Shown here one piece after another: positions 12,512 to 49,576 of a stretch of DNA of 64,000 nt. The notes under the pieces are model-generated. The model made no database searches. It worked only from the letters and a program-made list of their open reading frames with translations, and was not told the origin of the DNA. The stretch is taken from the NCBI RefSeq assembly GCF_000383955.1, contig NZ_KB913013.1, positions 1,952,277 to 2,016,276 on the forward strand. The letters are read 5' to 3'. Every line of letters starts with the position of its first letter. Within the stretch, counting starts at the first letter, position 1. This stretch comes from Rudanella lutea DSM 19387. GTDB taxonomy: Bacteria; Bacteroidota; Bacteroidia; Cytophagales; Spirosomataceae. The translations under genes were made by a program, and so were the position numbers.

Positions 12512-12569
12512 CAAAACAACACCAACAATCTTAAACCGCCCTTACAGATCCATTAGAAAAAACTTAGAA
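12512..12569 (-). promoter_or_regulatory. Phased four-box array and -7 element (array D)
   Basis: On the minus strand TTCTAAG, TTCTAAT, CTGTAAG and GTTTAAG start at 12569, 12558, 12547 and 12536, exactly 11 bp apart. The TTTG of a TTGTTTTG -7-like box starts at 12515, 21 bp after the start of box 4. The -33 position is thus taken by box 4, as expected for an activator-dependent promoter. It drives the 59-residue gene and lies 45 bases behind the end of the kinase gene. Confidence 0.72.
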
Positions 12570-12613
12570 TTAGGGTGTGCACCAACCAACAACCCTAAAC
12601 CCAAAACTCTAAA

Positions 12614-13981
12614 CTAAAGATGCGGCAGCGAAAGCCGGAACGTACTGCCTTCGTTTGGTTTGCTTTCGAGGGTAATCTTGCCCCGGTGCAGCTCGGCAAT
12701 GCGCTGACAGATGGGTAGGCCCAGCCCAAACCCCTCGTACTCGTGCACGTTGGACGCCCGCCGGAAGGGCTCAAAAACGGCAGCCTGCTCACCTGCCGGA
12801 ATACCAATACCCTTATCCTCAACAATCACATGGCACTGCTGATTGTCGATGGTAATACACACCCGCGCCGTATGATCAGGCGAGTATTTACAGGCATTGT
12901 CGAACAGGTTGAGCAATACCCGACGTAAGAGAGTCGCGTTGCCTTCGACCAGCGTTTCGTCGTCGATTTCGGGAGCCTGCCCGTATTGGATATCGACCCG
13001 ATAGTCGGGGTGGCTACTGAGCAACTCGTCGCGGGCTTCGAACACCGCATCATCGATACGAACCGGCTCCAGCGGCATCTGAATCACATCTTCGAGCGAC
13101 CGCGCCAGAAACAACAAACTGTTGGCCAGGCCGATCAGCCGGTCGGTATCGAGCAGCATCGTGTGCAGTACCCGTTCGTGCTCCGCGCGGTCGAGGGGTT
13201 GGCGCAGGGCCAGTTGTATTTCCGATTTTAGGGCCGTGAGCGGGGTGCGTAACTCGTGCGACGCGTGCGAAACAAAGGCCCGTTGCTGGGCAAAGGCTTC
13301 GTCGAGCCGGGCCAGCAGGGCGTTGAAGTTCATTGCCAATTGTTCGAGTTCATCGCGCTGGTTGCCCTCGTCGAGCCGCTGCCGCAGGTTGCGCGCCGTT
13401 ATCGACTTGATCTGCTGATTGAACTCATTCAACGGCCGCAGCGACTGCCCCGCGAAGAAAATCCCCGCCAGAATGGTGAGGCCCACCCCCCCGATAAACC
13501 CCCAGAACAACGTGTTGCGCAGGTGCCGCAGTTCGGTCAGGCCGGGGGCATCCAGGGCCGATGCCAACACCACGAGTTGTTGTTGTTTCTGGGTCGAGGC
13601 AATACCAACCATCTCGTACTGCCCCATCTGCACTTCGAGTTCGCCCTCCTGCCGGATTCGGTTGAGCAAAGCCGGTGGGTGGTCAATCTCCGCATCATCG
13701 ACACTGCTGTAAATGAGCTTATTGGCGTGATCAAACACCAGTACTTTCTCGTCGAACAAGGCCGTGAGCGAGTTCCGGTCAATGATTTTGAGCATGGCCC
13801 GGTCTACCTCTTTCACGTGCACCAGAAACCGCACCGTCGTGCGGGCTTTCTGCTTTAGTCGGTCGTAAAAGTCATCGCGTCGGTACGTCGATGCCGTCAC
13901 GTAAATGAGACTAAACAGCAGCAGCAGAATAGCCGCTACAATGAGCGAAAACCGAAGGGCAATCTGAGCCCGGAGCGTCAT
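12614..13981 (-). CDS. Sensor histidine kinase, two-component system 1
   Basis: A 455-residue inner-membrane kinase. Two membrane helices (about 10-30 and 165-185) flank a periplasmic sensor loop; a HAMP domain follows, then the dimerisation/phosphoacceptor box FVSHASHELRTPLTALKSEI and the ATPase domain with N-box LFDNACKYSPDH, G1 EDKGIGIP and G2 GFGLGLPI. This is the CusS-like architecture. ATG 13981 opens MTLRAQIALRFS; an upstream in-frame start adds only five residues. It lies 34 bases after its response regulator and is surely co-transcribed. The signal is unknown; no metal-binding His/Met cluster is obvious in the loop. Confidence 0.92.
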   Translation of the reverse strand: MTLRAQIALRFSLIVAAILLLLFSLIYVTASTYRRDDFYDRLKQKARTTVRFLVHVKEVDRAMLKIIDRNSLTALFDEKVLVFDHANKLIYSSVDDAEIDHPPALLNRIRQEGELEVQMGQYEMVGIASTQKQQQLVVLASALDAPGLTELRHLRNTLFWGFIGGVGLTILAGIFFAGQSLRPLNEFNQQIKSITARNLRQRLDEGNQRDELEQLAMNFNALLARLDEAFAQQRAFVSHASHELRTPLTALKSEIQLALRQPLDRAEHERVLHTMLLDTDRLIGLANSLLFLARSLEDVIQMPLEPVRIDDAVFEARDELLSSHPDYRVDIQYGQAPEIDDETLVEGNATLLRRVLLNLFDNACKYSPDHTARVCITIDNQQCHVIVEDKGIGIPAGEQAAVFEPFRRASNVHEYEGFGLGLPICQRIAELHRGKITLESKPNEGSTFRLSLPHL

Positions 13982-14015
13982 GATGGTTGGAAACACGGGG
14001 CGGTTAACGGTCAGG

Positions 14016-14702
14016 TTAGTCTACTTTGAGCACATAACCCAGGCCCGACCGGGTATGAATCAGCTTGGGCTCAAAATCTTTGTCGATTTTCTTGCGCAGG
14101 TAATTGATGTACACCTCCACCACGTTGGTGCCGGGATCAAAGTTAAGGCTCCAGACCCGCTCGGCAAGGTCAGCCTTAGTTACCACCCGGCCCCGGTTCC
14201 GCACCAGCTCCTCCAGCAACCGAAACTCCTTACCCGTCAGGTCGATCCGTTGGGTATCGCGGTACACATCTTTGGCGGTCAGGTTTATGGTCAGGTTAGC
14301 CACCCGCACCACCTCGTCGGCAATGTTGGCGTTGAGCCGCTCCGACCGCCGGAGGCAGGTAGCCACGCGGGCACTCAGCTCCCGCCAGTCGAAGGGCTTC
14401 ACCATGTAATCGTCGGCCCCACGCTCCAATCCTTCTACCTTGTCTTCCACCTCGCCCAGGGCCGTGAGCATGATAATGGGCAGGTGCGGCTTGGCCGACC
14501 GCAGATTCCGGCACACCTCAAAGCCGTTGAGGCCGGGCAGGTTGATGTCTAAAATAACCAGATCGACCGGCTGTTGCAAGGCCAGATCACGCCCGTTGTA
14601 CCCTTCGTACGCGATTTCGGTCTGATACCCTTCGGCGGCAAGGCCCCGGCTGATATTCTGAGCAATACGGCGGTCGTCTTCAATAATCAGAATCGTTTTC
14701 AT
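14016..14702 (-). CDS. OmpR/PhoB-family response regulator, two-component system 1
   Basis: A 228-residue regulator: receiver domain (1-120) with acidic pocket EDD at 8-10, phospho-acceptor D52 in LVILDINLPG, conserved Thr/Ala in MLTALG and Lys in YMVKPFDW; then a winged-helix DNA-binding domain (about 130-225) with the recognition helix region NVVEVYINYLRKKID. Such domains bind direct repeats of about 11 bp, which fits the box arrays at 12512-12569 and 15110-15167. ATG 14702 begins MKTILIIEDD. A -7-like TACCTTTG sits at 14972-14965, giving a leader of about 250 bases with an inverted repeat in it. Confidence 0.93.
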   Translation of the reverse strand: MKTILIIEDDRRIAQNISRGLAAEGYQTEIAYEGYNGRDLALQQPVDLVILDINLPGLNGFEVCRNLRSAKPHLPIIMLTALGEVEDKVEGLERGADDYMVKPFDWRELSARVATCLRRSERLNANIADEVVRVANLTINLTAKDVYRDTQRIDLTGKEFRLLEELVRNRGRVVTKADLAERVWSLNFDPGTNVVEVYINYLRKKIDKDFEPKLIHTRSGLGYVLKVD

Positions 14703-14789
14703 AGTGCGGCATAATACCGACCGGTATAGCACCGGCCCAGCCTTCATAGTTCAGTAGTCTTTGTTTCGTCGCAGGAAACCGTAAAGATA

Positions 14790-14837
14790 TCAGACGCCGA
14801 AGGCCGTACCTATCCTTCTCGCGTACCGGCGTCTGAT
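14790..14837. repeat. 11-nt perfect inverted repeat in the regulator leader
   Basis: ATCAGACGCCG at 14790-14800 and CGGCGTCTGAT at 14827-14837 are exact reverse complements with 26 bases between, themselves holding GGCCGTACC/GCGTACCG words. It would lie in the 5' leader of the response regulator transcript. Confidence 0.5.
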
Positions 14838-14964
14838 GTCTCACTACTGGATATTCGGACTTCAGACCCTGGTGTTAGAGGTACTACCATTGTGTAGGGA
14901 GGTTTACCGTCTAGTGTCCAATATCTGGTGTCCAGTACTGAGGTCTAACGTACAGTACCGAAAA

Positions 14965-14972
14965 CAAAGGTA
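14965..14972 (-). promoter_or_regulatory. Candidate -7 box of the two-component system 1 operon
   Basis: TACCTTTG on the minus strand fits the Bacteroidota -7 consensus TAnnTTTG. No TTG at the usual -33 distance was found. No NNCTAA box is placed 21 bp upstream, so autoregulation through the array is not indicated. Confidence 0.4.
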
Positions 14973-15109
14973 TCTTTCTCTTTCAAACGCCCGAAGGGTA
15001 CGCTCTATGACGGGTTCGGGTGTGCTCAGCAAAACAACGCAGACAACATACTAAAAACCAATACCTTGCAATTATAAATTTAAAAATACAGCCCAGGAAG
15101 AAGGCTAAT

Positions 15110-15167
15110 TTCTAAGCTTTTTCTAAGGAAAGTGTAAGCTTCTTCTAACAGACAAATGGTTAGTTTG
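15110..15167 (+). promoter_or_regulatory. Phased four-box array and -7 element (array A)
   Basis: TTCTAAG, TTCTAAG, GTGTAAG and TTCTAAC start at 15110, 15121, 15132 and 15143, an exact 11-bp period. TTAGTTTG (15160-15167) is the -7-like box; its TTTG starts 21 bp after box 4. The sequence variants (G after the core; TGTAAG as box 3) match array D behind the same two-component system. Transcription would run to the ClC gene. Confidence 0.72.
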
Positions 15168-15192
15168 CCAAACCAAATAAGGTCCCACCTAT

Positions 15193-15255
15193 ATGCCGAA
15201 GCCAACCGGCAGAAGGTACCAAAGGACTTTATACTACCTGGTGTTTCTGTTTTGA
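15193..15255 (+). CDS. Possible 20-residue leader or small membrane peptide
   Basis: The first ATG after promoter A opens a 20-codon frame with a basic start (MPKPTGRRYQR) and a hydrophobic end (YYLVFLF) before TGA. It would be read from a transcript that probably ends or pauses at the hairpin at 15350-15380. No ribosome binding site is seen, which is normal for this phylum. It may be a leader peptide, a small membrane protein or chance; the evidence is only position and charge pattern. Confidence 0.25.
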   Translation: MPKPTGRRYQRTLYYLVFLF

Positions 15256-15349
15256 GTCGAGCCCGATCAGTCACGCAGATAACTCAACGTTATGAAGTTG
15301 TCTGTGAGTTGATTTTGCCATTGAAGCGTACTGTAGGGTTACCAGATAG

Positions 15350-15380
15350 CTCCCGACCTCCTGGCCGGGAGTTATTTTTT
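15350..15380 (+). terminator. Terminator-like hairpin in the ClC leader
   Basis: CTCCCG (15350-15355) pairs with CGGGAG (15366-15371), the inner CC pairs with GG, and TTATTTTTT follows at once (15372-15380). It ends 18 bases before the ClC ATG, so it is either an attenuator of read-through from array A or the end of a ~205-base independent transcript. Confidence 0.6.
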
Positions 15381-15397
15381 GTAATTTACCGCCCTCT

Positions 15398-16702
15398 ATG
15401 GCGGCTCGTCTTTTTTCGGTTGCTTCCCTGACGGCCCTGGCCCGATGGGCTCCCGCACTCGTTTTCATGGCCCGGTGGCTGGTTATCTGCACACTTCTTT
15501 CGGTGGGTGTCGGGTCCGCTTCGGCCTTGTTTCTCGTGGCCCTCGACTGGGCCACCCACTGGCGCGAATCAAACCCCTGGATAGTTGCCCTGCTACCCCT
15601 CGGCGGCTTCCTGATCGGGCTGATGTACCACTACTGGGGGCGTTCGGTAGAAGGCGGCAACAACCTGCTGCTCGAAACCATTCACCGGCCCCGGTCGCCC
15701 ATTCCGTTTCGGATGGCACCGCTCATTCTGATCGGCACGGTAGGCACGCACCTGTTTGGCGGCTCGGCCGGGCGCGAGGGTACGGCCCTGCAACTGGGCG
15801 GGGCTATTGCCGACCGGCTTACGCCCGTGTTTCGCCTGCGCCCCCGCGATCGTCGGCTCCTGCTCATTGCGGGCATCAGTGCGGGGTTCGGCTCGGTGTT
15901 TGGAACTCCGCTGGCCGGGGCCATATTTGGCTTAGAAGTGTTTCTGGTGGGTCGGCTGAGCTACGAAGCCCTGTTTCCGGCCTTTGCTGCGGCTATTGGG
16001 GCCGATTACGTTACGCGGTGGTGGCAGGTTGGGCATACCCATTACCACATCCCGGCCGTGCCCGATCTCACACCGGCCTACGCGCTGTATGCCGCCCTGG
16101 CGGGCCTTGCCTTTGGTGCAACGGCCCTTCTGTTCGGCACCCTGACCCACGGTATTGGTCGGGTGTTCAAAGCCCGGCTGGCGTTTGCGCCCCTCCGGCC
16201 GCTGGTGGGAGGTCTGCTGGTGGCCGGAGCCGTGTGGGCCCTCGGCAGTACGCGCTACATTGGTCTGGGCGTGCCGGTTATTGTCGAATCATTTGAACAG
16301 CCCCTTTCCCCCCTCGATTTCATCCTTAAAATTCTGTTTACCGCCCTCACGCTCGGTGCTGGTTTCAAAGGAGGTGAGGTAACGCCCTTATTTTTCATCG
16401 GGGCCACACTGGGCAGTGCCCTCTCGGCCTGGCTCCCCCTGCCCACGGCCCTGCTGGCCGGTATGGGCTTTGTGGCCGTATTTGCGGGGGCTGCCAATAC
16501 GCCCCTGGCCTGTATTCTGATGGCGCTCGAACTATTTGGTGCCGCCTGCGGCCCCTACGTGGCCATTGCCTGTGTGGTGGCGTATCTATGTACCGGGCAC
16601 CGGGGCATCTACGGTGCGCAGGTCATTGGGCAGGCCAAACAGCTGCGATGGGGCCGGCAACAGGGGCAGCGACTGACCGACCTGACCCGGCCGAAGCCCT
16701 GA
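15398..16702 (+). CDS. ClC-family chloride channel or H+/Cl- antiporter
   Basis: A 434-residue inner-membrane ClC protein with about ten to twelve helices. The selectivity-filter signature GGSAGREGTALQLG holds the gating glutamate E127 (the usual GREGP reads GREGT here). The second signature GAGFKGGEVTPLFFIGA also fits. The short variant lacks CBS domains. Members move chloride, nitrate or fluoride; the fluoride-type signature is not present. The gene is preceded by the phased promoter array A and a terminator-like hairpin, so it may be controlled by two-component system 1. Its last 80 bases overlap the 3' end of the convergent GT2 gene. Confidence 0.92.
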   Translation: MAARLFSVASLTALARWAPALVFMARWLVICTLLSVGVGSASALFLVALDWATHWRESNPWIVALLPLGGFLIGLMYHYWGRSVEGGNNLLLETIHRPRSPIPFRMAPLILIGTVGTHLFGGSAGREGTALQLGGAIADRLTPVFRLRPRDRRLLLIAGISAGFGSVFGTPLAGAIFGLEVFLVGRLSYEALFPAFAAAIGADYVTRWWQVGHTHYHIPAVPDLTPAYALYAALAGLAFGATALLFGTLTHGIGRVFKARLAFAPLRPLVGGLLVAGAVWALGSTRYIGLGVPVIVESFEQPLSPLDFILKILFTALTLGAGFKGGEVTPLFFIGATLGSALSAWLPLPTALLAGMGFVAVFAGAANTPLACILMALELFGAACGPYVAIACVVAYLCTGHRGIYGAQVIGQAKQLRWGRQQGQRLTDLTRPKP

Positions 16703-19585: not shown

Positions 19586-19669
19586 CGCGAGTTTATAAAG
19601 ATCGGCGGTTCGGCTCAGTGCCCTGCCCAAGACCTTCAAAGCCAGTTTCCACGTAATCATAAACCCCAA

Positions 19670-19750: not shown

Positions 19751-19756
19751 CAGTCA

Positions 19757-23010: not shown

Positions 23011-23013
23011 CGT

Positions 23014-37986: not shown

Positions 37987-40900
37987 TTATTCGGCCAGGT
38001 TGAAACGCACCTGTACCCCACCGGCCGTGGTTGCCCGACGGTACGAATTGAGCACGAGTGGATCGTTGAATGTGCGGTCGAAATAGAAATTCAGGTTCAA
38101 TCGGCGGCTCACGACGTAATTGATCGTGGGGCGAATCTGGAAGTTGTAGTTACCCGACGTCACAATCTGTTCGGCATCGAGCTTACGCTGAATGGCCCGG
38201 GTGTCGCGCAGAGTGAACTGAAACTGGAACGTCATATCGTTTTTCAACCGCCGACGCTGCCCGTTAACCATAAAAGGCAACCGGAAATTGTTTTTGGTGT
38301 ACCCTACCGTTGCCGTAATGTCTTTGTTAGTCAGATCGGCCACCTGCGCGTTGGAGAGGTTGAGCGCTACATCGCGGCTTTGGTTATACTCAAACCGGCC
38401 CGACCAGCGGTTTTTGGTCTGGAATTGCACACCCAGCAAGGGGGCAAACCGCTCGGTCATCTGGATCGTGCTCATGACAAACACCGGAATGTACAGGCCT
38501 TCGAGCGTGGCCCGGCTCGCCAGTGGGTAGTCCATTACAGCCAGATTGACCAGCATAGCCGAGTAGTCGAGGGCCGACACAAAGTTGCCTACGCTGTAAT
38601 TCGACGTGTAGCTGTGTGCCAGCGTAAACGAGTTGAACCGTTTACGGAACATCGGCAAGCTGCTCAACCCCGTGTAGTCGATACGCCAGTTGGGCAGGGG
38701 GAAATTGTAGAACGGCGACAGGCTCGTTTTCTTCACACTCTGCCCGCTGTAGGCGGCAAAAAACGCCGGAATCAAGACATCCTGCGAGTTGAGCGTATAG
38801 CTGCCCGGTCGGCCCGGCTCGGTGGGGTTTACCTGCTGCAACCGCGCCAGAATCTCTTTCCGGTTGTCTTCAAACCGCTTAAACAGGGTCGATGCATTGT
38901 TGTTTACCCGCGAGCTAAAGCCCAGATCGTTGAAGGCCGTTCGGAACGACCAGAACGACATGCTGAACTGACCGTTACGCACCGGGCTTTGGCTCTCGAA
39001 GTTGCCACCTACGGTTGAAGGCCGGTAAAACTCCTGATACGAGTCGGCACGGGTGAGCCGCATCTGCACGTTCATCCGGAAATCCTTGAACGGCTCCAGG
39101 TTGGTGGTTGCCGTGAAGTTTTTGGCAATACTCTGCTGGAACGCCGTGTTGAGCACGGTGCTGTTGGTGAGCCAGCCCCGCTCGGCTGCCTTAATCTGAA
39201 TCTGCCGATCCTGCGCACCCAGCACAAACGGAAGCCCCGGCGCGCCCGCGCGGTCGAGCCCGAAGAACCGGGGTGTGCTCAGAAAACCGGGCAGAATTGT
39301 CGACTCCTGAATGGTGTAGTTGAAGTTGATGCCGCGCACGGTCAGCAGCACCCGCGTGGCCGACTTAAGCAGGCGGTTTTCGTTCCGCACAATTTCCTCA
39401 ATATCACCAGGACTACGGGCAAAGTTTTTCCGCACCGGCGAGGGCGTATTGGCCCAGCGCAAGGCCCTGATTTTGTTGTACAGCAACACCAGGTCGATAC
39501 GCCCCGTAATGCCCCGCTCCCGGTTGTTGCGCAGTACGTTGCCAAACGACGCTCCGGTGGAGTCGGTCAGGCCGAAGGCGTTGGCCTGAAACTGGTAGCC
39601 CATGCCATAGTTGACATCGGCCGCAATCCAGTCGGTGAGCGGGAGTTTGTCGAGCGGAAGCCGGTAGGTAAACCGCAGATCCTGCTGGTAGTTTTTGATC
39701 CGCCCCAGTTTCTGCACGCTCTGCCAGATCGAGTCCCGTTTCCAGGTCCGATCAATGTCGCCCGCTGGCTCGTCGATGATGGCGTTAGCCTGCGACTTGT
39801 AGGTGAGCAACAGGTTTTTGGTCAGGTTCCAGGTAATGTCGTAGTACCGGTTGAACAGGAAGTATTTCTCAAACAACGGAGCCACACCGAGGGTAGTCAG
39901 ACCCGTTCCGCCACTGCCCGCAGCAGTGGGATCAGCATTGCGGAGCTGGGTTTTGATGAAACTCCGGTCCATATCTGTCCGTATCGACACCACGGAGGGT
40001 ACCAGGCTCAGATTGAAATCTTTCAGCCAGAACAGGTACTTGCGCTCCAGACTTTTCACGTTCCTGAACGGCTCAATCACGCGGGGTTGCGGGCTGTACG
40101 TGTACGTAATGCCCCCCCGGTACTGCCGTTGCAGGTACTGATCGGTCAGAATATTGGTACGCTCAATGTCATTAAAGGCATACGAGAACCCGAAGTTTTC
40201 GACGTCGTAAAAATGATTCTTCGCGTTGGGGTTAGTTTTCACCTTCCGCACGTTGGAGAGGTTAATACCTCGGCGCATGGTGCGGTCTTCAACCATCCGG
40301 CGGTAGGCCGACCGGGCCGAGCCATCGGGGAAGGCCAGCAACGACTGTTCGAGCTTCACGTCGGGGTCGAGCGGGTCAAACTGCGGGGCAATCCGGCGGG
40401 AATCGACGTTGAAATACATCGGAATCCGAAGGCCCCACTTTTCGGGGAAGAGCTTGTCGATCGACACCGCCGACGATACCCCGTACTCCACCGTGAGGTC
40501 GCGCGTGCGCTCGCCTACTTTGGTTTGCACCCCGCCAAACCCGAAGGTTGTAAACTTACCGGAGGCCGTCACGTTGGCAAAGTCGGCCAGTTTAACGTTC
40601 ATGGCCACTACCCCGGCCTTACCGGCGGTTTGGTCGTAGCCGTTGGTACGGAGTTCGTTCACCCAGATCGTAAACGTTTTGGGTTGCTGATCGGCCGAAC
40701 GCGGGTTGCGCACTCCGATCATCACCGACTGCACCGCGCTTAGGTCGGGGTTACCCACTACCGTAATCTTGTACACCTTCGACGGGTCGTCGGGGTCGAC
40801 GGCCTGTCCCTCGTAAGGCACCGCCGACCGACGGGTCAGCTCCCCATTCCGCCGGACTTTCAGGTCGATCAGGTCCTGTAGAAGAATATCTATTTCGTTC

Positions 40901-43900
40901 TCGTTGGGCCATACTTCGGTATCGGCAATGGCCGACGAAGGGGTGGCCCGCAGACCGGGCGTTTCAATTTCGTAATAATTGTCGGTAAAGTCAGTACCGA
41001 TCCGCATGAAGGCCGCTACCTGTCCGCTTTCGTCCTGCTCGTTGTGCATGTGCACAAACATCTTGAGCCGCTTGCGGAATTGCAGGTCGAGGTTGGTGAT
41101 GCGGAAAGCGCCCCGCGAGTCGCCATCGCGCAGGTTGGTTACGCTCAAGGCCATCGACTGCTCGTTGAGCTCTACGTTGGCAATCTGCGTAAAGTCGCGG
41201 TCGCGCTGGAAGCCCGGCGGCACCGTGTACCGATATTTAGTTTGCGCCACCCCACCCCCGGTAACGGCCGTTGTGCTTTGGCTGTTTTCTTCGATATTGA
41301 CCGTAGTTACTTTAAACTGAGCGTCGTACGGCTCGGGCACCTCCTGCAAACCACGCTGATTCAGGTCGCCCGTAAACCGGCGATATTGGTTCGCTTCCAG
41401 TTGAAGCTGCCCAAACCGAAGCACTACGGGCTCCTGAAAATCAGTCAGGTACATCCGAATAAACCGGATCGATTTGAAGCCGTTGATGTTGCCGACCTTC
41501 CGGGCAAAGTCGCGCACCGGAATCCGAAACTGGTACCAGGTAGTCCCCTCCGTTTCGATTTTATCAACAATGTAGCCCCGACCCACCTGCAACTGTCCCG
41601 GCCGCAGATCAATGGGGTACTCGTAGTAGGCTTCGTTGTCGTTGATGGTATTGTCGACGTTCAAATCCTCAATATCGGGCAGGTTGGTCGACGATGGCGT
41701 CAGAAACTGGTTGCGGTTGTTGAGGTCTTTGGAGTTGCCATCCATGCCCATAAACTGCTTATACCGGGCTACGATGTACTTAGCCGAGTCGGCCTGCGGT
41801 CCGAGGTAGAACCGGAAGTCGTCGTTGGAGGGGTCGCTCTGAATCTGCTCAAAGGCATCGGCATTGACCCGGGGCCGAATCTGGGTGAGGAAGTCCGCAA
41901 ACTTCTGCTGCTCTTCAGCATTGGTTAACCCGTCGAGGCCCACGTCCTGCCGTTCGAGGTCACCGGCCTGATTTGAGAAGGCATTGGTCACAAACTGCTG
42001 CCGGGTCACCTTACCCCAGGCCGTGGTGTCGTTGTCGGGGCCCCGGTCTTCGGGATTTACTTTCAGGCCGTTCTCAAAATTGAACCGACCATCTTTCACC
42101 ACGTCTTCCGAAATATCGCCGAGGTTAAAAATCAGCCGCCCGCCCGTCGTGTTGGGCTTGTTGCGCGAGTCGTCGGGGAAAGCCCGCACCTTGCCCCGCT
42201 CACCGGGCAAAAATGGGTCCATCATCCAGAAGGTCAGCGTTTCGACGTTGGCATTGTCGAAATCAATATCCGAACCCACAGCCCGCGTTACCGAACCGAA
42301 GTTCTGGCGTGGGTTGGGCAGAAAGCCCTCGCGGGTCAGGTTGGGGTTATAGTTGTACATACCCCGCTCGCTGGGGAAGTAGGCTACGTCGAGGATTTGG
42401 GTTGGCAGTACAACGGTTGGCGTTGAGCGACCGGGAAACAATTGATTGGGCAAAAAGTACTGCTCGTAGAAATTCCGCTTGTCTTCTTCCGACAGGTTGA
42501 GCGGAATAGCCCCCGGCAAGGTATTGTTGTAAATGGTCTGGTCGACGCTGTACACCGAAATTTTGGCGCGGTTGTAGGCGTACTCCAGCGGATTCTGAAT
42601 CGTCCCCTGCGGAAACTGGAGCGGGGTGGCTCCCAAACGCCAGCGAGTCGGCTGCCGGGTCAGGTCGAAGATGGTCCGGGCAGCCTCGAAATCATCGATA
42701 AAGGAGTTATCGTTCACGCGGGGCGCCACGCCGGGAAAAAGCTGAGCCACCTCGGCCTGTAACGCGATGGTCGACAGCTCTTTGGTTTGGAGGAACGGTA
42801 GCTTGTCGACGAAGCGGGTCAGGCCGGGCAGTTCTTTCCGGAGGTTCAGGTTGAAGCCCAGAATCGTGTTGTTGACCGGCTCGTTGCCGATGGCCACGCG
42901 GGTCAGAAAACCGGCGGGGGTCTCGCGCATGTTCATGGCCGTCATACCCACCGAAATGTCGGGACTGATGGCGTAGTCGAGCCGGGTACCGATGAGTCGG
43001 CGAATCTGGTTCTGGAACAAGTCGGGCTGTTCGTAGGCAATCCGGATTTCGCGGCCCGATGCCACCACACTCTCATTCAGAATTCGGAGCTGGCCCGTCG
43101 AAGCCTCGAAAATATAATCGGCCCCGGCCGATAAAGGAACGCCCCCGGCCGATACCTGCACCGATTCTTCTTTCACCCCAAACGGCAACTGCACGGACGG
43201 CCCTACGCCCGACTGCACACTTCCTTTGAGGAAAAACTTGTTGCGGTCGGGTACCTGAATGGCATCGGCCAGGGTCAGGCGGTACAGCTCGTTGAATACG
43301 TACTTGGCCCGCAGGTCTTCTTCGGCATCGGTAAACTGCCGCGACAGGTACGAGCCAAACGGTTCGAGCACGGGAAAGATAATCCGGCCGAAGCGCGGAT
43401 CGACGGTTACGTTTTCGACAAAGTCGAAGTTGCCGTCGGGCTGCTTATCGAGCTGCTGGTTCAGCTGGTCCATGTTGAACACCTGCACCAGCGGCCGGTC
43501 GCGCAGGTTCTGCCCCTCCTGCAAATTGGGGTTATCGATACCCGTCTGATCGTCTTTGTACACGATTCGGAGCTGAAAGCCCTGCCGGTTGATCTGCTGA
43601 CCAGCCATCGCACCGGCCCCGCCCATGCCCCCTACCCCGCCGAGGGTATAGATGTTTTTCATCATCAGGTCCCACATCGGCAGTTGCAGGTTGTTGCGGA
43701 TGGTGGCCGACTTCAGCATTTTCAGCACCAGCACCTCATTGTCGCGCCGGTTCTGGTAGTCTTCGGTCAGTTCACCCACCTTGTAGCTCCGCCCCTGATA
43801 GGTGTATTCGAAGGCAACGGCCAGTACCTCGTCGTTGCGCAAGGGCGTCAGCAACGAGATGTAGCCCAGCTCAGGATGAAATTTATACTCCCGGTCGGTC

Positions 43901-45603
43901 AGGCGTTTGGCCCCCCGCAACAGGTCGTAGTCGACGCCTTTCTGGAAACCAAACTGCCCATCGAGCACAAAGCTTGCCCGGTCAACCTGCCGAATATCGG
44001 GGTTATTCCGAAGGCGGTCGTACAGCGTATTCGAGCGGTTGTCAGCCGTAGCCGAGCCAGCAATAATCTGCACATTCGGGTTGTTGGGGCTGTTGAGCCG
44101 CCGGTTTTCGCCCAGATCGGAGAAAGCCGCCAGGTTACGTAGGGTTTCGGTGGTATTGGTCCGGTTGGTAACGTAGACCTCCAAACGCGTAATGGTCACA
44201 CCCGTAGTAATCATGGGCAGCGACCGTAAACCCCGCTCGTAATTGTCGCGGAAAAACTGCGACAGGAAGAAGTGTCGGTTCTCGTCGTACTGATCGGCCC
44301 GGAGTTCGTAGGGCCGCCCAATGGTGCCGCCCCGCAACACAATCTCCTGCTTGCGTGAGCGTTGCTGCGAGCCCACCAGCGTAGCATTGAGCCGCCCAAA
44401 CCGGAGCTGCGATTTGAAACCGAAGAGATTTTGCACCCCCGGAATCAGCTGACTGTTGATGGGCCAGCTAATGTTTCCCAACTCAAGGCCTTGAATGATG
44501 CTTTCGTTCTTGGGCGTAAAATCAGGAATCGAAGGCGCTCCCAGCCCCTGCGTGAGGTTACGCCCATTGGGCAAGCCACCGGGTAAACCACCAGGCAGTC
44601 CGCCGGGCAAACCGGGTGGAAGCAGGCCCTGCGGTTTGTAATTCAGCTTGAGGGCATTCTCAAAGTTAAAGCTCGCTTTGGTATCGAAGTTGGCCAGCAT
44701 ACCGAGCCGCTCACCAATCTTACCATTGAAGTTGATGTTGATCTGCTCGTTGAAGATAAAGTTGCCCTGCCGCCGTTGCTGTACCGGAATGGCCGGGTTG
44801 TCGATAAACTGATGCAGATACCCAAAGTCGAGCATCACAAACCCATTGGGTTTAAAATCGACCTGCGAACCACCAAACAACCGGTCGACCACAGGCGGCA
44901 ACTCCAGTTTGGGAAGCAACCCACGCCCCCGAACGGCACTTTGTCCGTCGCGCTGCGCACTGTAATCACGCCAGAGCGACTGCTGTGCGCGCCCGTTTTG
45001 CAAACGCTGATACTCACTAAATGGAATACTCTCGGCCGGCCGAAACGGCAATGTACCGACGCCCGGCGTGGCCACGCCGGGCGGGTTTGTATTGGAGACC
45101 GGAGCCTGTGGAGAAACACCGGGCGTCGCCACGCCCGGCGTACCGACGCCCGGCCGTACCTGTTCGTAAACCGACAGGCGATCACGGCTGTCGAGCCGAA
45201 TATCGGTCGCTACGCCCTGCGGGTCGCGCAGGATAAACGGGGAGCGGGATGTGCGTTCGGAAAACCGGGTGGCGTAGCGGTCGGGCCAGTTAACGGTAGG
45301 TCGCCGATTGGCCGAGCGGGCCGCCCGAATGCTATCGGCGCGTTCCTGAGCGGCCAGACGGGCATTGGCACGACGGGTCGAGTCGGCCTGTTGGGCTGCC
45401 TGAGCCGCCGGGGTGGTATTGCGCCGGGGTACGGTTCCGCGCCGACCGCTTTGGGCCAGTGCGTTCGTATTCAGCACGCTAACGGCCGAAACCCCCAGCG
45501 TTGCACACAGCAGCCATTGGGCCACAGCCTGCCGCCTGATCCGGCGTTGAAGCGTAGTCACAGAGGTAAACAAGAAGTCGTGAACAAGGTAAGGGTTCAC
45601 CAT
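37987..45603 (-). CDS. sprA: SprA, type IX secretion system outer-membrane translocon
   Basis: A 2538-residue protein, the size of SprA/Sov, the very large beta-barrel through which type IX secretion cargo (CTD-tagged enzymes, adhesins, gliding SprB) crosses the outer membrane. After a signal peptide ending NALAQ comes an Ala/Arg-rich region, a linker with repeated PGVATPGV units (from about 170) and PGGLPGGLPGG repeats (about 330-345), then the long barrel with the usual SprA segments (VMLDFGYLHQFIDNPAIP, ENALKLNYKPQGLLPPGLPG, RFNLAE at the C-terminus). ATG 45603 is taken; an upstream in-frame start adds 17 non-signal residues. The gene follows ruvA, as in many Bacteroidota. The palindromic DNA under the PGV repeats is unusual. 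Confidence 0.96.
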   Translation of the reverse strand: MVNPYLVHDFLFTSVTTLQRRIRRQAVAQWLLCATLGVSAVSVLNTNALAQSGRRGTVPRRNTTPAAQAAQQADSTRRANARLAAQERADSIRAARSANRRPTVNWPDRYATRFSERTSRSPFILRDPQGVATDIRLDSRDRLSVYEQVRPGVGTPGVATPGVSPQAPVSNTNPPGVATPGVGTLPFRPAESIPFSEYQRLQNGRAQQSLWRDYSAQRDGQSAVRGRGLLPKLELPPVVDRLFGGSQVDFKPNGFVMLDFGYLHQFIDNPAIPVQQRRQGNFIFNEQININFNGKIGERLGMLANFDTKASFNFENALKLNYKPQGLLPPGLPGGLPGGLPGGLPNGRNLTQGLGAPSIPDFTPKNESIIQGLELGNISWPINSQLIPGVQNLFGFKSQLRFGRLNATLVGSQQRSRKQEIVLRGGTIGRPYELRADQYDENRHFFLSQFFRDNYERGLRSLPMITTGVTITRLEVYVTNRTNTTETLRNLAAFSDLGENRRLNSPNNPNVQIIAGSATADNRSNTLYDRLRNNPDIRQVDRASFVLDGQFGFQKGVDYDLLRGAKRLTDREYKFHPELGYISLLTPLRNDEVLAVAFEYTYQGRSYKVGELTEDYQNRRDNEVLVLKMLKSATIRNNLQLPMWDLMMKNIYTLGGVGGMGGAGAMAGQQINRQGFQLRIVYKDDQTGIDNPNLQEGQNLRDRPLVQVFNMDQLNQQLDKQPDGNFDFVENVTVDPRFGRIIFPVLEPFGSYLSRQFTDAEEDLRAKYVFNELYRLTLADAIQVPDRNKFFLKGSVQSGVGPSVQLPFGVKEESVQVSAGGVPLSAGADYIFEASTGQLRILNESVVASGREIRIAYEQPDLFQNQIRRLIGTRLDYAISPDISVGMTAMNMRETPAGFLTRVAIGNEPVNNTILGFNLNLRKELPGLTRFVDKLPFLQTKELSTIALQAEVAQLFPGVAPRVNDNSFIDDFEAARTIFDLTRQPTRWRLGATPLQFPQGTIQNPLEYAYNRAKISVYSVDQTIYNNTLPGAIPLNLSEEDKRNFYEQYFLPNQLFPGRSTPTVVLPTQILDVAYFPSERGMYNYNPNLTREGFLPNPRQNFGSVTRAVGSDIDFDNANVETLTFWMMDPFLPGERGKVRAFPDDSRNKPNTTGGRLIFNLGDISEDVVKDGRFNFENGLKVNPEDRGPDNDTTAWGKVTRQQFVTNAFSNQAGDLERQDVGLDGLTNAEEQQKFADFLTQIRPRVNADAFEQIQSDPSNDDFRFYLGPQADSAKYIVARYKQFMGMDGNSKDLNNRNQFLTPSSTNLPDIEDLNVDNTINDNEAYYEYPIDLRPGQLQVGRGYIVDKIETEGTTWYQFRIPVRDFARKVGNINGFKSIRFIRMYLTDFQEPVVLRFGQLQLEANQYRRFTGDLNQRGLQEVPEPYDAQFKVTTVNIEENSQSTTAVTGGGVAQTKYRYTVPPGFQRDRDFTQIANVELNEQSMALSVTNLRDGDSRGAFRITNLDLQFRKRLKMFVHMHNEQDESGQVAAFMRIGTDFTDNYYEIETPGLRATPSSAIADTEVWPNENEIDILLQDLIDLKVRRNGELTRRSAVPYEGQAVDPDDPSKVYKITVVGNPDLSAVQSVMIGVRNPRSADQQPKTFTIWVNELRTNGYDQTAGKAGVVAMNVKLADFANVTASGKFTTFGFGGVQTKVGERTRDLTVEYGVSSAVSIDKLFPEKWGLRIPMYFNVDSRRIAPQFDPLDPDVKLEQSLLAFPDGSARSAYRRMVEDRTMRRGINLSNVRKVKTNPNAKNHFYDVENFGFSYAFNDIERTNILTDQYLQRQYRGGITYTYSPQPRVIEPFRNVKSLERKYLFWLKDFNLSLVPSVVSIRTDMDRSFIKTQLRNADPTAAGSGGTGLTTLGVAPLFEKYFLFNRYYDITWNLTKNLLLTYKSQANAIIDEPAGDIDRTWKRDSIWQSVQKLGRIKNYQQDLRFTYRLPLDKLPLTDWIAADVNYGMGYQFQANAFGLTDSTGASFGNVLRNNRERGITGRIDLVLLYNKIRALRWANTPSPVRKNFARSPGDIEEIVRNENRLLKSATRVLLTVRGINFNYTIQESTILPGFLSTPRFFGLDRAGAPGLPFVLGAQDRQIQIKAAERGWLTNSTVLNTAFQQSIAKNFTATTNLEPFKDFRMNVQMRLTRADSYQEFYRPSTVGGNFESQSPVRNGQFSMSFWSFRTAFNDLGFSSRVNNNASTLFKRFEDNRKEILARLQQVNPTEPGRPGSYTLNSQDVLIPAFFAAYSGQSVKKTSLSPFYNFPLPNWRIDYTGLSSLPMFRKRFNSFTLAHSYTSNYSVGNFVSALDYSAMLVNLAVMDYPLASRATLEGLYIPVFVMSTIQMTERFAPLLGVQFQTKNRWSGRFEYNQSRDVALNLSNAQVADLTNKDITATVGYTKNNFRLPFMVNGQRRRLKNDMTFQFQFTLRDTRAIQRKLDAEQIVTSGNYNFQIRPTINYVVSRRLNLNFYFDRTFNDPLVLNSYRRATTAGGVQVRFNLAE
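44568..44622 (-). repeat. In-frame GLPG tandem repeats in sprA
   Basis: Units of 12 bases encode PGGLPGGLPGGLP. Similar PG-rich insertions vary in number among SprA proteins; slippage could change the copy number. Confidence 0.7.
45060..45158. repeat. Cluster of GC-rich palindromes inside sprA
   Basis: A perfect 24-base palindrome with core GCCCGGCGTGGCCACGCC lies at 45060-45083. A second hairpin CCGGGCGT/ACGCCCGG (45119-45126/45131-45138) and a further GACGCCCGG half follow. All are translated in frame as PGV(A/G)TPGV repeats of the N-terminal linker. Confidence 0.75.
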
Positions 45604-45659
45604 TGGTAATGCGTCAAATCGGTGGTGTGACAGATCACGATACGGCAACTGCACAGGTC

Positions 45660-45885
45660 TTCACTTCAAACGGCGAACATCGTGCCAATCGTATAAACAG
45701 GGAACAATGAACAACGAACAATGAACAGTTATCAACGAACAGTGAACAACGAACAATCCGGTACTCAGAAAGCGCAGATGAAAAGCAGTGTATGAGCTTC
45801 TAAAAAAATAATGCACTAATCATCAACAACAAAGGATCACCATTTAGCGCCAACTGTTCACTGCTCGTTGTTCGCTGTTAGTTTT
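45660..45885. repeat. Degenerate GAACAATGAAC repeats between sprA and ruvA
   Basis: Near 45705-45755 the word (G)AACAATGAACAACGAACA recurs in variants, and an inverted TGTTCACTGCTCGTTGTTCG stands at 45851-45870, giving an imperfect long hairpin. It resembles the AATGTA/AATAATG family in style but not in exact words. No other gene is seen in these 288 bases. Confidence 0.5.
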
Positions 45886-45891
45886 TGGTTG

Positions 45892-46488
45892 TCAGCGCAG
45901 TGCCCGACGAATTACGTCTTCAACGCTCAGGTCGGCACCATCGGCACTTTGCAGAATAGAATCGACATTTTTCTCGGCCAATGGGCGCTGAAAGCCGAGG
46001 GCCATCAGAGCAGCCAGGGCTTCTTCGCGGACGGGATTAGCACCCGCCACCTGCCGGTACGTGGGCCCGTCGGGGATAACACCGGCCTTCTTCATCTTGT
46101 CTTTTAACTCCAAAATAATACGTTGGGCCGTTTTGGCACCTACCCCTTTGATGCTTTGCACCACCCGGACATTCTCCGACAAAATAGCCATGCGGAGGTC
46201 AGACGGGCTCAGGGCCGACAAGGCCATCAGGGCGGTATTAGGCCCCACCCCCGACACGCTGATTAAGTCCTGAAACAGGGTTTTTTCGTCGCCACTCGCA
46301 AATCCGTAGAGGAGTTGGGCATCTTCCCGAAAAATATGGTGGGTAAACAGCTTCACCTTGTCGCCCCCGCCGGGAAGTGTTGAGTACGTGGCCAAAGAGA
46401 TATGAACCGCGTAGCCTACGCCTTTCACGTCGATGATAGCGTAAGTTGGCTCTTTGTAAGCCAGCGTTCCGTCTAAGTATGCAATCAT
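45892..46488 (-). CDS. ruvA: Holliday junction branch migration protein RuvA
   Basis: A 198-residue protein of normal RuvA length. Domain I (OB fold) starts MIAYLDGTLAYKEPTYAIIDVKGVGY; two helix-hairpin-helix motifs follow (SVSGVGPNTALMAL and IKGVGAKTAQRIILELKDK), and the C-terminal domain III (about 150-198, EEALAALMALGFQRPLAEK) would contact RuvB. RuvA binds four-way junctions and loads RuvB in recombinational repair. It is upstream of sprA, as common in the phylum, with a 288-base repeat-bearing gap that makes co-transcription uncertain. Confidence 0.97.
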   Translation of the reverse strand: MIAYLDGTLAYKEPTYAIIDVKGVGYAVHISLATYSTLPGGGDKVKLFTHHIFREDAQLLYGFASGDEKTLFQDLISVSGVGPNTALMALSALSPSDLRMAILSENVRVVQSIKGVGAKTAQRIILELKDKMKKAGVIPDGPTYRQVAGANPVREEALAALMALGFQRPLAEKNVDSILQSADGADLSVEDVIRRALR

Positions 46489-46698
46489 GCCTTAATGGCG
46501 TCTCGTTTAGAGGGTTACTAATCGGTAAATATACACAAAAAGGGGGAGAATAACCCAACGTATACTATACCGGTCTGCAAGCCATGACAAAGATTATGCC
46601 TCTCCATTTATGACACATGTTGAATCCGAAAATTTTTAAACTTTCCTGAATTGAATGTCGTATATGGAATATTCCATTCACAATCATTACTTTCTACC

Positions 46699-47391
46699 AT
46701 GGCCCCTATTGCCCGCCTGCTTGTTGTTGAGGATGAAGTTAAGGTCGCTACATTTATTAAAAAGGGACTCGAAACCCAGTCGTACTCTGTTGATGTAGCC
46801 TATGACGGCCGCGAAGGCAAACGGCTTTTCTCGTCTGATGCCTACGACCTAATTGTGCTCGACGTAAACCTCCCCTTTTTGAGTGGCCTTGAGCTGGCTG
46901 AATATATCCGCAGCAAGAATGCATCCCTCCCTATTCTGATGCTGACAGCACTCGACACAACCACCGATAAACTGTTGGGTTTTGAAGCCGGTGCCGACGA
47001 TTACCTGGTGAAACCATTCGAGTTTCTGGAATTAATAGCTCGGGTGAAAGCGCTTCTGCGTCGGCACAGCGGTCCGGCCGATGGACGGAAACAAAAACTA
47101 CAATTCGCCGATCTTGAATTGGATCTCGACGCCAAAGTGGCCCGCCGACAAGGTGACGTCATCGAACTGACCGCCCGCGAGTTTACCTTGCTCGATTATT
47201 TGATGCAGAATCCGGGCCGGGTTGTTTCACGGATCGATATTGCTCAACATGTATGGGACATCAATTTCGACACGGGCACCAACGTCATTGACGTATACGT
47301 AAACTATTTACGTAACAAAGTTGACAAGCCTTATAACCAGAAACTGATTCATACGGTCATTGGCATGGGCTATGTCCTGAAAGATAAATGA
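46699..47391 (+). CDS. OmpR/PhoB-family response regulator, two-component system 2
   Basis: A 230-residue regulator: receiver with acidic pocket EDE (11-13), phospho-acceptor D55 in LIVLDVNLPF, LTALD and the Lys in YLVKPFEF; then a winged-helix domain with TNVIDVYVNYLRNKVD in the recognition region, very like that of the regulator at 14016-14702. ATG 46699 gives MAPIARLLVVEDE; the frame is open 16 codons upstream. Its stop overlaps the kinase ATG (ATGA). Likely targets are the phased promoters at 48785-48842 and 49430-49487. Confidence 0.93.
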   Translation: MAPIARLLVVEDEVKVATFIKKGLETQSYSVDVAYDGREGKRLFSSDAYDLIVLDVNLPFLSGLELAEYIRSKNASLPILMLTALDTTTDKLLGFEAGADDYLVKPFEFLELIARVKALLRRHSGPADGRKQKLQFADLELDLDAKVARRQGDVIELTAREFTLLDYLMQNPGRVVSRIDIAQHVWDINFDTGTNVIDVYVNYLRNKVDKPYNQKLIHTVIGMGYVLKDK

Positions 47392-48761
47392 ACGTTATCC
47401 TGACTATTCGCGCCCGACTTGCACTCCTTTTCACGGCGGTTGTGTCGTTGTTGCTACTCATCTTTTGTCTTCTGATTTATACCGTTGCAGAGCGTTTTCG
47501 GCAGCGCGAATACAAAGAACGGCTCCGCGAAGAAGCCCTCACGTCTGTGGAGCTCCTGTTTGGGAAAGAAACGATCAACCCCGACCTGTTTAAACTCCTC
47601 GACAGGAACCAGATGACAGTTCTTAATCAGGAAGAAATCATTATCTACAATCATCGCAACCAGATTATTTATGAAAGCGGCTCCGACTACCTCGATGTAA
47701 GCAAACATCAGCTCGATCAGATACGCCTTAAGGGCGAGTTGTTCTGGCGCGAAGGAGACCGCGAAATTGTGGGTGTTCCGTATGCCGACCGGCTCAATCG
47801 GTTCGTGGTGGTTACTTCAGCCATCGACAAGTACGGATTCAGCAAGCAGCGCGGGTTAGCTATTATGCTGGCGGTGGGTTGGCTACTCGCAACGGTCGTT
47901 GTGGCTGTTACAGGCTACTACTTTGCCCAGCGTATGCTACGGCCTATTCAGCGAATGGTACAAGAAATTGACTTGATCACGGCCTCGGCCCTCAACCGAC
48001 GACTGCACGAAGCCAACAACAACGACGAACTGACCCAGCTGTCGCGTCGGTTCAATCGGATGCTCGACCGGCTCGAAGAAGCGTTTCGTATGCAGCGGGC
48101 CTTTGTCTCCAATGCCGCCCACGAACTCCGCACCCCCCTGACAGCCATCACGGGTCAGCTGGAAGTATCGCTCATGACCGACGAAAGCCCGGCTGACCTG
48201 AAGGCAACCATTATCTCGGTTCTCGACGACGCGAAAGGTCTTAACCGATTGGCCAATGGCCTGATGAGCCTCGCCAACGCCAGCCTCGACGAGTCGGCCG
48301 TGCGGATGCAACCGGTAGCTGTGGATGAGGTTCTCTGGCAAGTACGCCAAACCCTGAGTAAACAACATCCCAACTATGCCGTGCTGCTCGAACAGCCCAC
48401 GTCACAGCCAAGCTATGCCTGGCAAATAACAGGTAACGATAGCTTGTTGCAGTCGGTGTTTTATAACCTGCTCGAAAACGGGGCCAAGTTCTCGCCCAAT
48501 CATACGGTCAGGGCCCGTTTGAGTGCCAGCACTACTGAACTGACTCTTTGGATACAAAACGATGGCCCACCCCTACCGGCCGATGAATTACCGCATATTT
48601 TTAAGCCTTTCCGGCGGGGCAGCAACGGCAAAGACATTCATGGTCACGGCATTGGACTCTCACTTACCGAGCGTATTGTACGGTTGCATCGTGGCCGCAT
48701 CAGTGTTGAGTCGAGTACCGAACAGGGGACTATTTTCACGCTCGTGCTCCCCCTTCAATAG
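47388..48761 (+). CDS. Sensor histidine kinase, two-component system 2
   Basis: A 457-residue inner-membrane kinase, paralogous to that at 12614-13981: first helix about 10-30, periplasmic sensor loop, second helix about 155-178, HAMP, phosphoacceptor box FVSNAAHELRTPLTAITGQL, N-box FYNLLENGAKFSPNH, and HGHGIGLSLTERI as G2. The G1 box is weak (IQNDGPPLPADEL), a deviation also known in other CusS-like kinases. The signal is unknown. It is translationally coupled to the regulator, and an array-bearing promoter starts 24 bases after its stop. Confidence 0.92.
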   Translation: MNVILTIRARLALLFTAVVSLLLLIFCLLIYTVAERFRQREYKERLREEALTSVELLFGKETINPDLFKLLDRNQMTVLNQEEIIIYNHRNQIIYESGSDYLDVSKHQLDQIRLKGELFWREGDREIVGVPYADRLNRFVVVTSAIDKYGFSKQRGLAIMLAVGWLLATVVVAVTGYYFAQRMLRPIQRMVQEIDLITASALNRRLHEANNNDELTQLSRRFNRMLDRLEEAFRMQRAFVSNAAHELRTPLTAITGQLEVSLMTDESPADLKATIISVLDDAKGLNRLANGLMSLANASLDESAVRMQPVAVDEVLWQVRQTLSKQHPNYAVLLEQPTSQPSYAWQITGNDSLLQSVFYNLLENGAKFSPNHTVRARLSASTTELTLWIQNDGPPLPADELPHIFKPFRRGSNGKDIHGHGIGLSLTERIVRLHRGRISVESSTEQGTIFTLVLPLQ

Positions 48762-48784
48762 GTTAAACGCCCCCTGCTGATAAC

Positions 48785-48842
48785 TTCTAATTTATTTCTA
48801 ATAGCTCCCTAACATACGCTTAATCAGGCCTTTTTAGATTCG
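48785..48842 (+). promoter_or_regulatory. Phased four-box array and -7 element (array B)
   Basis: TTCTAAT, TTCTAAT, CCCTAAC and GCTTAAT start at 48785, 48796, 48807 and 48818, exactly 11 bp apart. TAGATTCG (48835-48842) is the -7 box; its TTCG starts 21 bp after box 4. The array lies directly behind the kinase gene and 39 bases (from the -7 box) before the small membrane protein gene. Confidence 0.72.
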
Positions 48843-48880
48843 CAGCGTAGCACCTTGAGTAAACAGCCCTGCCGACGCTT

Positions 48881-49204
48881 ATGAATCGTTATGTTATCGA
48901 TCACTCCGCCAATCATCACGCCCGTCCGCCGGCTGGTAGCCCCCCCAACCGACGGGTGCGGGTAGCCCTACCGTGGTGGGTGTTGTTGGTTTGCTGCTTC
49001 GGTTGCGCCATGAGCCTGGCGGGCTGGGTACATTCAAACCGGGCCAATCGGCAACTACAGCAAGCCCATGATTTTCTTCGGGTTCGGTACGACTCGCTGC
49101 TGGCCAGTCAACTCGAAACCGAACGACAGCATCTGCAATTTCGGCAACTACTCGACTCACTAAACAATCGGGCTACGGCACCCTCGCAACCGGCCCAACC
49201 ATAA
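48881..49204 (+). CDS. Small single-pass membrane protein, likely target of two-component system 2
   Basis: A 107-residue protein of unknown function. A Pro/Arg/His-rich N-terminal tail (1-29) is followed by one membrane helix (about 30-50, WWVLLVCCFGCAMSLAGWV) and a hydrophilic, probably coiled-coil helix (QLQQAHDFLRVRYDSLLASQ and on to about 95) ending in a Pro/Ala tail. Positive residues before the helix favour a cytosolic N-terminus and a periplasmic coil. Its own activator-type promoter and position behind the kinase suggest it is induced by, and perhaps feeds back on, the two-component system. No homologue is recognised. Confidence 0.7.
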   Translation: MNRYVIDHSANHHARPPAGSPPNRRVRVALPWWVLLVCCFGCAMSLAGWVHSNRANRQLQQAHDFLRVRYDSLLASQLETERQHLQFRQLLDSLNNRATAPSQPAQP

Positions 49205-49576
49205 AGTATTTTACTCTCTTTCAGTAGCATACCTCCTTTTTACGCCTGCTGATACCTGACCCCGGCTGCCTGAAGTTGTTCGGGGCTTTACCCGTGCCGC
49301 TTATCGGTACGGGCGGTTTGTTACGGCCTATTGTTAAATGCTATCACGTTGCAACCCTCGGGGCCGTCCTGTGGCAACGCCAAAGCATTGGGCAGTACAC
49401 GCTCTCGGGTCTACCGTTGCCACGGTAAACTCTAATTGCTTTCTAATTAGAGACTAATTCAAGCCTAACCCCTCTGTCTCACCTTTGTTCTGTCAATCAA
49501 CGACAGGCTAATGAACCAAACAACTTGCACCGGACATCCGGGTAAGACGCCATAAACTAAACAACAAATAACCATC
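49205..49576. other. Gap with hairpins and array C
   Basis: These 372 bases hold no gene. CCCCG/CGGGG (49260-49264/49281-49285) followed by CTTT and the stronger CCCGTGCCG/CGGTACGGG (49291-49299/49305-49313) are candidate stops for the small membrane protein transcript. Array C lies at 49430-49487, giving the downstream lipoprotein gene a leader of about 80 bases. Confidence 0.6.
49430..49487 (+). promoter_or_regulatory. Phased four-box array and -7 element (array C)
   Basis: CTCTAAT, TTCTAAT, GACTAAT and GCCTAAC start at 49430, 49441, 49452 and 49463, exactly 11 bp apart. CACCTTTG (49480-49487) is the -7 box; its TTTG starts 21 bp after box 4. The first two boxes also form a CTCTAATT/AATTAGAG hairpin. 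The promoter reads into the prohibitin-like lipoprotein gene. Confidence 0.72.

Follow-up and report, generated by a model that had tools for sequence, protein, structure and literature searches.

The question raised by a 64,000-nt stretch of the Rudanella lutea DSM 19387 genome (contig NZ_KB913013.1; genome 6.55 Mb), hereafter the window, is whether four promoters beside two sets of two-component genes share a common control code. Each carries what we call an array, which consists of four hexamers of the NNCTAA type, with at most one letter of CTAA varied, at an 11-bp period and followed by TTTG. The four-array pattern is real and lies far beyond chance. Judging from their sequence context, the arrays are probably operators for two tandem dimers of phosphorylated, CusR-like response regulators (RRs) of the OmpR/PhoB family encoded nearby, which would act by class II activation at sigma-A promoters with a -7 element. 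The geometry of the arrays, their phase, their location and their linkage to regulators are observed.

Array 1 (12512..12569, minus strand) starts 45 bp past the stop codon of the histidine kinase (HK) gene HK1 and contains the boxes TTCTAA, TTCTAA, CTGTAA and GTTTAA, with TTTG at 12515-12512. Array 2 (15110..15167, plus strand; TTCTAA, TTCTAA, GTGTAA and TTCTAA, with TTTG at 15164-15167) lies upstream of the RR1 gene and is divergent from it, and both arrays are kept in the relative G001. Array 3 (48785..48842, plus strand) starts 24 bp past the HK2 stop codon and has the boxes TTCTAA, TTCTAA, CCCTAA and GCTTAA with TTCG at 48839-48842, and array 4 (49430..49487, plus strand) has CTCTAA, TTCTAA, GACTAA and GCCTAA with TTTG at 49484-49487. 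Direct reading bore out the original prediction on all four arrays, on the exact 11-bp period of their boxes and on the exact distance of 21 bp between the first base of box 4 and that of TTTG or TTCG (4/4). When at most two mismatches were allowed in the boxes and one in TTTG, the window gave four matches and 200 dinucleotide shuffles combined gave none, a comparison with shuffled sequence that had been named beforehand. CTAA-CTAA pairs 11 bp apart numbered seven in the window, whereas the shuffles averaged 0.95 and never exceeded 4. With a weight matrix derived from 101 arrays in other genera of the same family, arrays 1 to 4 scored 40.3, 39.7, 36.9 and 46.8 bits, respectively; the matrix found nothing of 9 bits or more in the remainder of the window and nothing of 6 bits or more in 20 first-order resamples of it (1.28 Mb).

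A scan of the whole genome for four CTAA boxes with TTTG at +21, counted from the start of box 4, gave 10 matches at no more than three mismatches in total, against 0 in the reversed control; the same scan of four genomes of the genus gave 29 against 2. The boxes without TTTG were not enriched at up to three mismatches (36 in the genome against 65 in the control). The genome-wide enrichment that had been proposed was found for boxes and TTTG together and was absent from the loosest box-only scan: the signal resides in low-mismatch arrays and in boxes and TTTG jointly, and loose box matches are meaningless. Across 150 genomes of the family, we searched for CTAA, CTAA, nTAA and CTAA at 11 bp followed by TTTG after a gap of 1-30 bases, which produced 131 matches in 68 genomes and 8 in the reversed control. 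TTTG stood at +21 in 110 of the 131 arrays, in agreement with the fixed phase that had been proposed, at +33 in six, at +32 in five, at +20 and +7 in three each and at four other offsets once each, so that 11 more arrays place it about one helical turn further out. The same genomes gave a single match at a period of 10 bp (control 9) and three at 12 bp (control 2), one of the three being a plain tandem repeat, and the spacers separating the boxes of the family arrays were weakly conserved. With shuffles, resamples, reversed controls and wrong periods all low, the statement that such identity of spacing is hard to obtain by chance is upheld.

The search pattern by itself does not account for the four-box form. 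In 80 family loci (973 kb), sites were chosen on nTCTAA-N5-TTCTAA only and the arrays used for fetching were excluded; among the 45 resulting two-box sites, three or four of the four letters matched at box 3 in 33 and at box 4 in 24, some of these sites being register shifts of longer or other arrays, and TTTG was found at +20 to +22 in 18. Beyond the family, an order-wide draw that included family members gave matches at no more than one mismatch in 60 of 291 genomes (control 9), some of them plain tandem repeats, and a phylum-wide draw gave exact matches in 6 of 395 genomes (control 0), 4 of the 6 lying outside the order. In family f12 of the same order (G177, G192, G290, G371 and others), the -7 box is often CTTG instead of TTTG, still at +21. 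We considered the +32 class as a separate operator and rejected this in part, as three examples (L174, L187 and L192) are longer arrays with the last box in the usual register; the +33 arrays are not explained in this way. Six of the latter (L115, L118, L119, L120, L127 and L151) have no fifth box in register and represent a second, more distant promoter geometry, and the genes downstream of L115, L118, L119 and L127 resemble outer-membrane efflux genes by eye.

How the arrays are seated on a promoter can be derived from start-site mapping in flavobacteria, which places the TAnnTTTG -7 box at -12 to -5 (PMC9723704). With TTTG taken to start at -8, the array begins with box 1 at -62 and ends with box 4 at -29 to -24, and -33 belongs to the spacer that separates boxes 3 and 4. 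The position given earlier for box 4, over -33, is therefore incorrect. Class II activators occupy a site over -35/-33 whose distance to the core promoter does not vary, and the arrays have the fixed +21 spacing and boxes 3 and 4 flanking -33. In the +21 arrays, the last base of box 4 is 11 nt away from TAnnTTTG, which keeps the boxes clear of the -7 element. The A of TAnnTTTG, which was absent from the search pattern, is present in 79% of the 108 distinct arrays with the +21 offset, a point of likeness to the Bacteroidota sigma-A promoter (PMC9723704). The arrays differ from that promoter in having no TTTG in register at -33, where Bacteroides fragilis has one; the array stands there instead. 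No conserved TTTG was seen in the spacer before box 4 (alignment positions 26-30), and the -33 box is perhaps not universal in the phylum: B. fragilis promoters are described as having TTTG at -33, and the passage on Flavobacterium johnsoniae speaks of confirmation for the -7 element only (PMC7366714).

The placement of the arrays was assessed with a de-duplicated set of 158 from the window and 97 fetched loci, counting as an open reading frame (ORF) any of at least 90 aa. Not one of the 158 lies wholly within an ORF, as against 74% of random points, and 124 are followed on the same strand by an ORF start within 250 nt (random points 11.6%; median of these distances 50.5 nt), so that the expected enrichment before genes is present. 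Proximity to regulators and kinases was likewise found: a homologue of the RRs or HKs of the window occurs within 3 kb of 104 of the 158 arrays (104 of 147 in a count of 80 loci that included register shifts), and 46 of the 158 lie directly behind a kinase gene, starting -60 to +250 bp from a same-strand kinase stop codon. In the R. lutea genome itself, 8 of the 10 arrays with boxes and TTTG have such an RR or HK no more than 3 kb away. The other two are at 336499, 7.5 kb from a kinase, and at 861469, with none in the surrounding 20-kb stretch. One of the loci (L066:8498-15976; G000:C1 ~336.5-344.0 kb, G000 being the R. lutea genome) holds a regulator-less kinase beside trehalose genes (TreZ-like and OtsAB) together with arrays, and another, ~4.9 Mb away (L069:9504-9561), holds a kinase-less regulator with an array. 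As a matching pair stands together in L083, these two appear to be the separated halves of one two-component pair that has a trehalose regulon.

The window encodes two such pairs. RR1 (14016..14747) and its partner HK1 (12614..13996; HAMP, HisKA and HATPase_c by Pfam) are on the minus strand, and RR2 (46651..47391; likelier start ATG 46699) and its partner HK2 (47388..48761; a sensor histidine kinase by Pfam, as is HK1) are on the plus strand. RR1 and RR2 both carry a receiver domain (Response_reg, PF00072) and a C-terminal winged helix (Trans_reg_C, PF00486) above the cut-offs, and by their domains the regulators belong to the OmpR/PhoB family. The residues E11, D12, D55, T83 and K105 are invariant across seven aligned RRs; we take these to be the acidic pair (E11/D12), the phosphoacceptor Asp and the Thr and Lys of the receiver. 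The best NCBIfam model for RR1 to RR4 is TIGR01387 (CusR/CopR/SilR heavy-metal regulators), a likeness qualified by scores of 247.6, 248.9, 245.8 and 233.6 bits that lie below the curated cut-off of 279.2, and the three kinases scanned had TIGR01386 as best model at 186-217 bits against a cut-off of 293; since regulators and kinases fall below the CusR-type cut-offs, we claim no metal role for them. Escherichia coli CusR binds an inverted repeat, whereas the arrays are direct repeats. BasR is one of the solved homologues of RR2, and the PmrA/BasR model NF007928 gave 161.7 bits for RR1 and 170 for RR2, below its cut-off of 330.

A profile scan of named genomes gave at least 80 regulator loci, 15 of which were counted as Bacteroidota from their titles. 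Among the loci listed, seven have a strict array, all of them Bacteroidota (7/15): Dyadobacter, Neolewinella, two Chitinophaga, Chryseobacterium (+33), Flavobacterium and Hymenobacter (+32). No box-only array with two or fewer mismatches was found in the 65 non-Bacteroidota loci among those listed. The order RR-HK-array was found in Dyadobacter, where the next gene is oppositely oriented, and in Neolewinella, Chitinophaga and Flavobacterium; no kinase of this kind was seen at the locus beside the Hymenobacter regulator. We then placed the regulators on a midpoint-rooted tree of 70 rows, comprising 57 of the 80 listed loci (23 non-Bacteroidota loci were left out) and the 13 OmpR-type regulators of R. 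lutea. All 11 array-linked RRs fall in one 22-row, all-Bacteroidota clade with support of 99/99, and none is among the other 48 rows (Fisher test 3e-7, with tree rows that are not independent). Outside this clade are one Bacteroidota regulator (L274) and five of R. lutea; the remaining eight of R. lutea, RR1 and RR2 among them, are inside it. Four of these eight have an array in a 3.2-kb locus. The fifth, RR5 (G000:C1:2401689), has beside it a TTAA-type four-box array of 23.3 bits with TTTG at +21 (L294:6642-6699), perhaps a drifted code, and a similar TTAA array with TTTG at +21 occurs in Pontibacter (L195, near 8072). The letters of the recognition helix by themselves were tried as a predictor of arrays and rejected: sister RRs in metagenome-assembled genomes of Omnitrophota and Nitrospira share them, and the 65 non-Bacteroidota loci lack box-only arrays at two or fewer mismatches.

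Taken together, the proximity of regulators and the linkage to one clade in several orders of the phylum indicate that the original prediction, in which the arrays were targets of the adjacent paralogous OmpR/PhoB regulators, was right in essence. The head-to-tail half-sites about 11 bp apart have the geometry of OmpR/PhoB operators. In the mechanism we propose, two RR dimers would bind the four boxes side by side, head to tail, on one face of the helix, and the dimer on boxes 3 and 4 would stand in place of the -33 element and hold the housekeeping sigma factor and polymerase at -7. A signal to the kinase would then switch on the next gene. The mechanism is inferred from PhoP, which activates from direct boxes at such distances (PMC3335776), and from PmrA, which binds its half-sites head to tail (PMC3973317).

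The same regulators could also act as repressors or in a dual manner at these sites, blocking polymerase at -7. Boxes 3 and 4 do sit where polymerase binds, and repression is expected of PhoP boxes that cover the -10 or lie beyond the start site, but box 4 ends 11 nt short of TAnnTTTG in the +21 arrays and leaves the -7 element free, the +21 phase fits the activating direct box of PhoP architecture I, which lies ~12 nt from the -10, and the +32/+33 class fits the activating PhoP class at 21-23 nt (PMC3335776). The absence of a conserved TTTG from the spacer before box 4 also speaks against repression, with the proviso already given for the -33 box, and we consider repression unlikely. A further reading keeps the 11-bp geometry, assigns it to some other DNA-binding protein and attributes the nearness of RR and HK genes merely to shared stress islands. 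It would accommodate the 54 of 158 arrays with neither an RR nor an HK homologue up to 3 kb away; however, one RR clade and no other among 70 RRs is linked to the arrays, although a systematic search for other recurring regulators was not made, and the RR-HK-array order is repeated in several families. The head-to-tail half-sites are moreover of OmpR/PhoB geometry, as are the CTTAAT and CCTAAG half-sites that PmrA binds head to tail (PMC3973317), and another binder is very improbable. Chance, or a simple-repeat artefact of A+T-rich intergenic DNA, can practically be dismissed: some order-level matches (G275) and one 12-bp match are indeed plain tandem repeats, and box-only matches at three mismatches equal noise, but the shuffles and resamples were empty at the thresholds given, counts in the reversed and wrong-period controls as high as those of the arrays were looked for and not seen, and conservation of the spacers is weak.

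Several observations nevertheless weigh against interpreting the arrays as operators of this regulator clade. Array 3 has TTCG where the other three have TTTG, 82 of the 150 family genomes have no exact match, and the box-only scan of the genome showed no enrichment. The 54 arrays without a regulator or kinase homologue include one at a carbonic anhydrase gene (G000:C1:861469), and for three of the eight clade RRs of R. lutea no array within ~6 kb reaches 9 bits. On the tree, the array label changes eight times, with at least five changes forced by starred branches, which means that it comes and goes within the clade. The missing -33 TTTG lends activation little weight, because some members of the phylum may lack a -33 box (PMC7366714). 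In G001, an insertion of ~1.5 kb separates array 2 from the downstream chloride channel gene.

Several paralogues in one cell share the CTAA core, and the base after CTAA together with the distance to the -7 element may keep them apart. From adjacency and base bias, RR1 would read arrays 1 and 2, and RR2 would read arrays 3 and 4. When each array was assigned to the closest regulator up to 3.5 kb away (97 assigned, 61 without any), the base after box 2 was G in 0 of 53 RR2-like and in 16 of 29 RR3-like arrays (Fisher test 2e-9, for arrays that are related by descent), and G followed box 3 in 20 of 53 and 24 of 29, respectively. Among the +33 arrays with a regulator nearby, four belong to RR5-like regulators (50-54% identity) and one to an RR3-like regulator. 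An insulation code based on the base after CTAA and the offset is a possible explanation of what is so far a correlation. The broader proposal is that a Bacteroidota RR clade shares a four-box, 11-bp operator fitted to TAnnTTTG, with paralogues separated by the base after CTAA and by the -7 distance (21, 20 or 33), and that sequence could reveal which regulator goes with which target throughout the phylum; we advance it tentatively, giving it somewhat less than an even chance.

Direct-repeat operators, class II promoters and the mechanism itself are already known from PhoB, PmrA and PhoP. The PmrA/BasR box resembles the arrays in its head-to-tail hexamers, the letters of which are nearly those of NNCTAA(T/G), and differs in having two half-sites per box, at Proteobacteria promoters, where the arrays have four boxes; in the recognition helix, PmrA has His193, His195 and Asn196 (PMC3973317), as against Tyr, Asn/Ser and Tyr/Phe/Leu here by our own putative pairing. 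For Salmonella PhoP, a direct box is described as activating when it lies ~12 nt from the -10, or further out at 21-23 nt, and half-turn shifts leave little expression; architectures I and III, with direct boxes at 11-12 or 21-23 nt, depend on helical phasing, architecture I being class II (PMC3335776). The 11 nt between box 4 and TAnnTTTG, and the second class 11-12 nt further out, parallel the PhoP classes. PhoP differs in its half-box, (T/G)GTTTA, its sigma-70 promoter and its single box formed by a pair, in contrast to four boxes and a -7 TAnnTTTG in the arrays. The motif, the fit of its four-box form to the Bacteroidota promoter and the fact that several paralogues have it in common look new. 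We found no publication describing this motif in Bacteroidota in a mainly open literature, with subscription journals mostly outside it, which is weak evidence of absence. A possible precedent, TTCTAA in a paper on a Bacteroidota regulator (PMC3646045), was discarded, as the sequence there is that of a primer.

Candidate target genes lie downstream of each array. Their homologues were counted in 99 fetched loci, mostly fetched for holding arrays, so that only a directly upstream array on the same strand is informative. The probable target of array 4 is an SPFH/Band_7 protein by Pfam (49577..50365, plus strand), whose homologues occur in 17 of the 99 loci with an array directly upstream in 15 of the 17; a 265-aa protein (50475-51272) has an array directly upstream in 4 of 7 homologues. 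Array 3 probably controls a 107-aa protein (48881..49204, plus strand), which has an array directly upstream in all 8 homologues found. For array 1, the probable target is a 59-aa protein (12284..12463, minus strand) starting ~50 nt past TTTG, with homologues in 11 of 99 loci, an array directly upstream in 2 of the 11 and no Pfam family at E 0.01. A possible target of array 2 is a CLC chloride channel by Pfam (15398..16702, plus strand), 230 nt downstream. It is a weak candidate, and was not upheld as a sure target, because the G001 insertion parts the array from the gene. An ORF in that insertion (L072:7980-9146) may be TnpB-like. In L147 and L148, arrays are followed by weak CLC-like homologues (35 bits) that Pfam did not confirm. 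Other arrays of the genome precede a TreZ-like gene (below the cut-off), an OtsAB gene (above it), a carbonic anhydrase gene and, in the case of a poorer array, an RND efflux pair. The window also holds a 2555-aa open reading frame (37987-45654, minus strand).

In conclusion, the same design recurs beside one family of stress-sensing regulators in related bacteria, which suggests a common control code that can be read, not a coincidence. To our knowledge, few regulator binding sites are known in Bacteroidota beyond a handful of models. If our interpretation is true, a motif that can be found in sequence and is tied to one clade and to recurring targets, SPFH proteins foremost, would allow two-component regulons to be predicted in Cytophagales, Chitinophagales and Flavobacteriales. 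The arrays would also offer ready-made inducible promoters for species in which tools are scarce, and a natural setting in which to test how paralogous regulators with one core motif avoid cross-talk.

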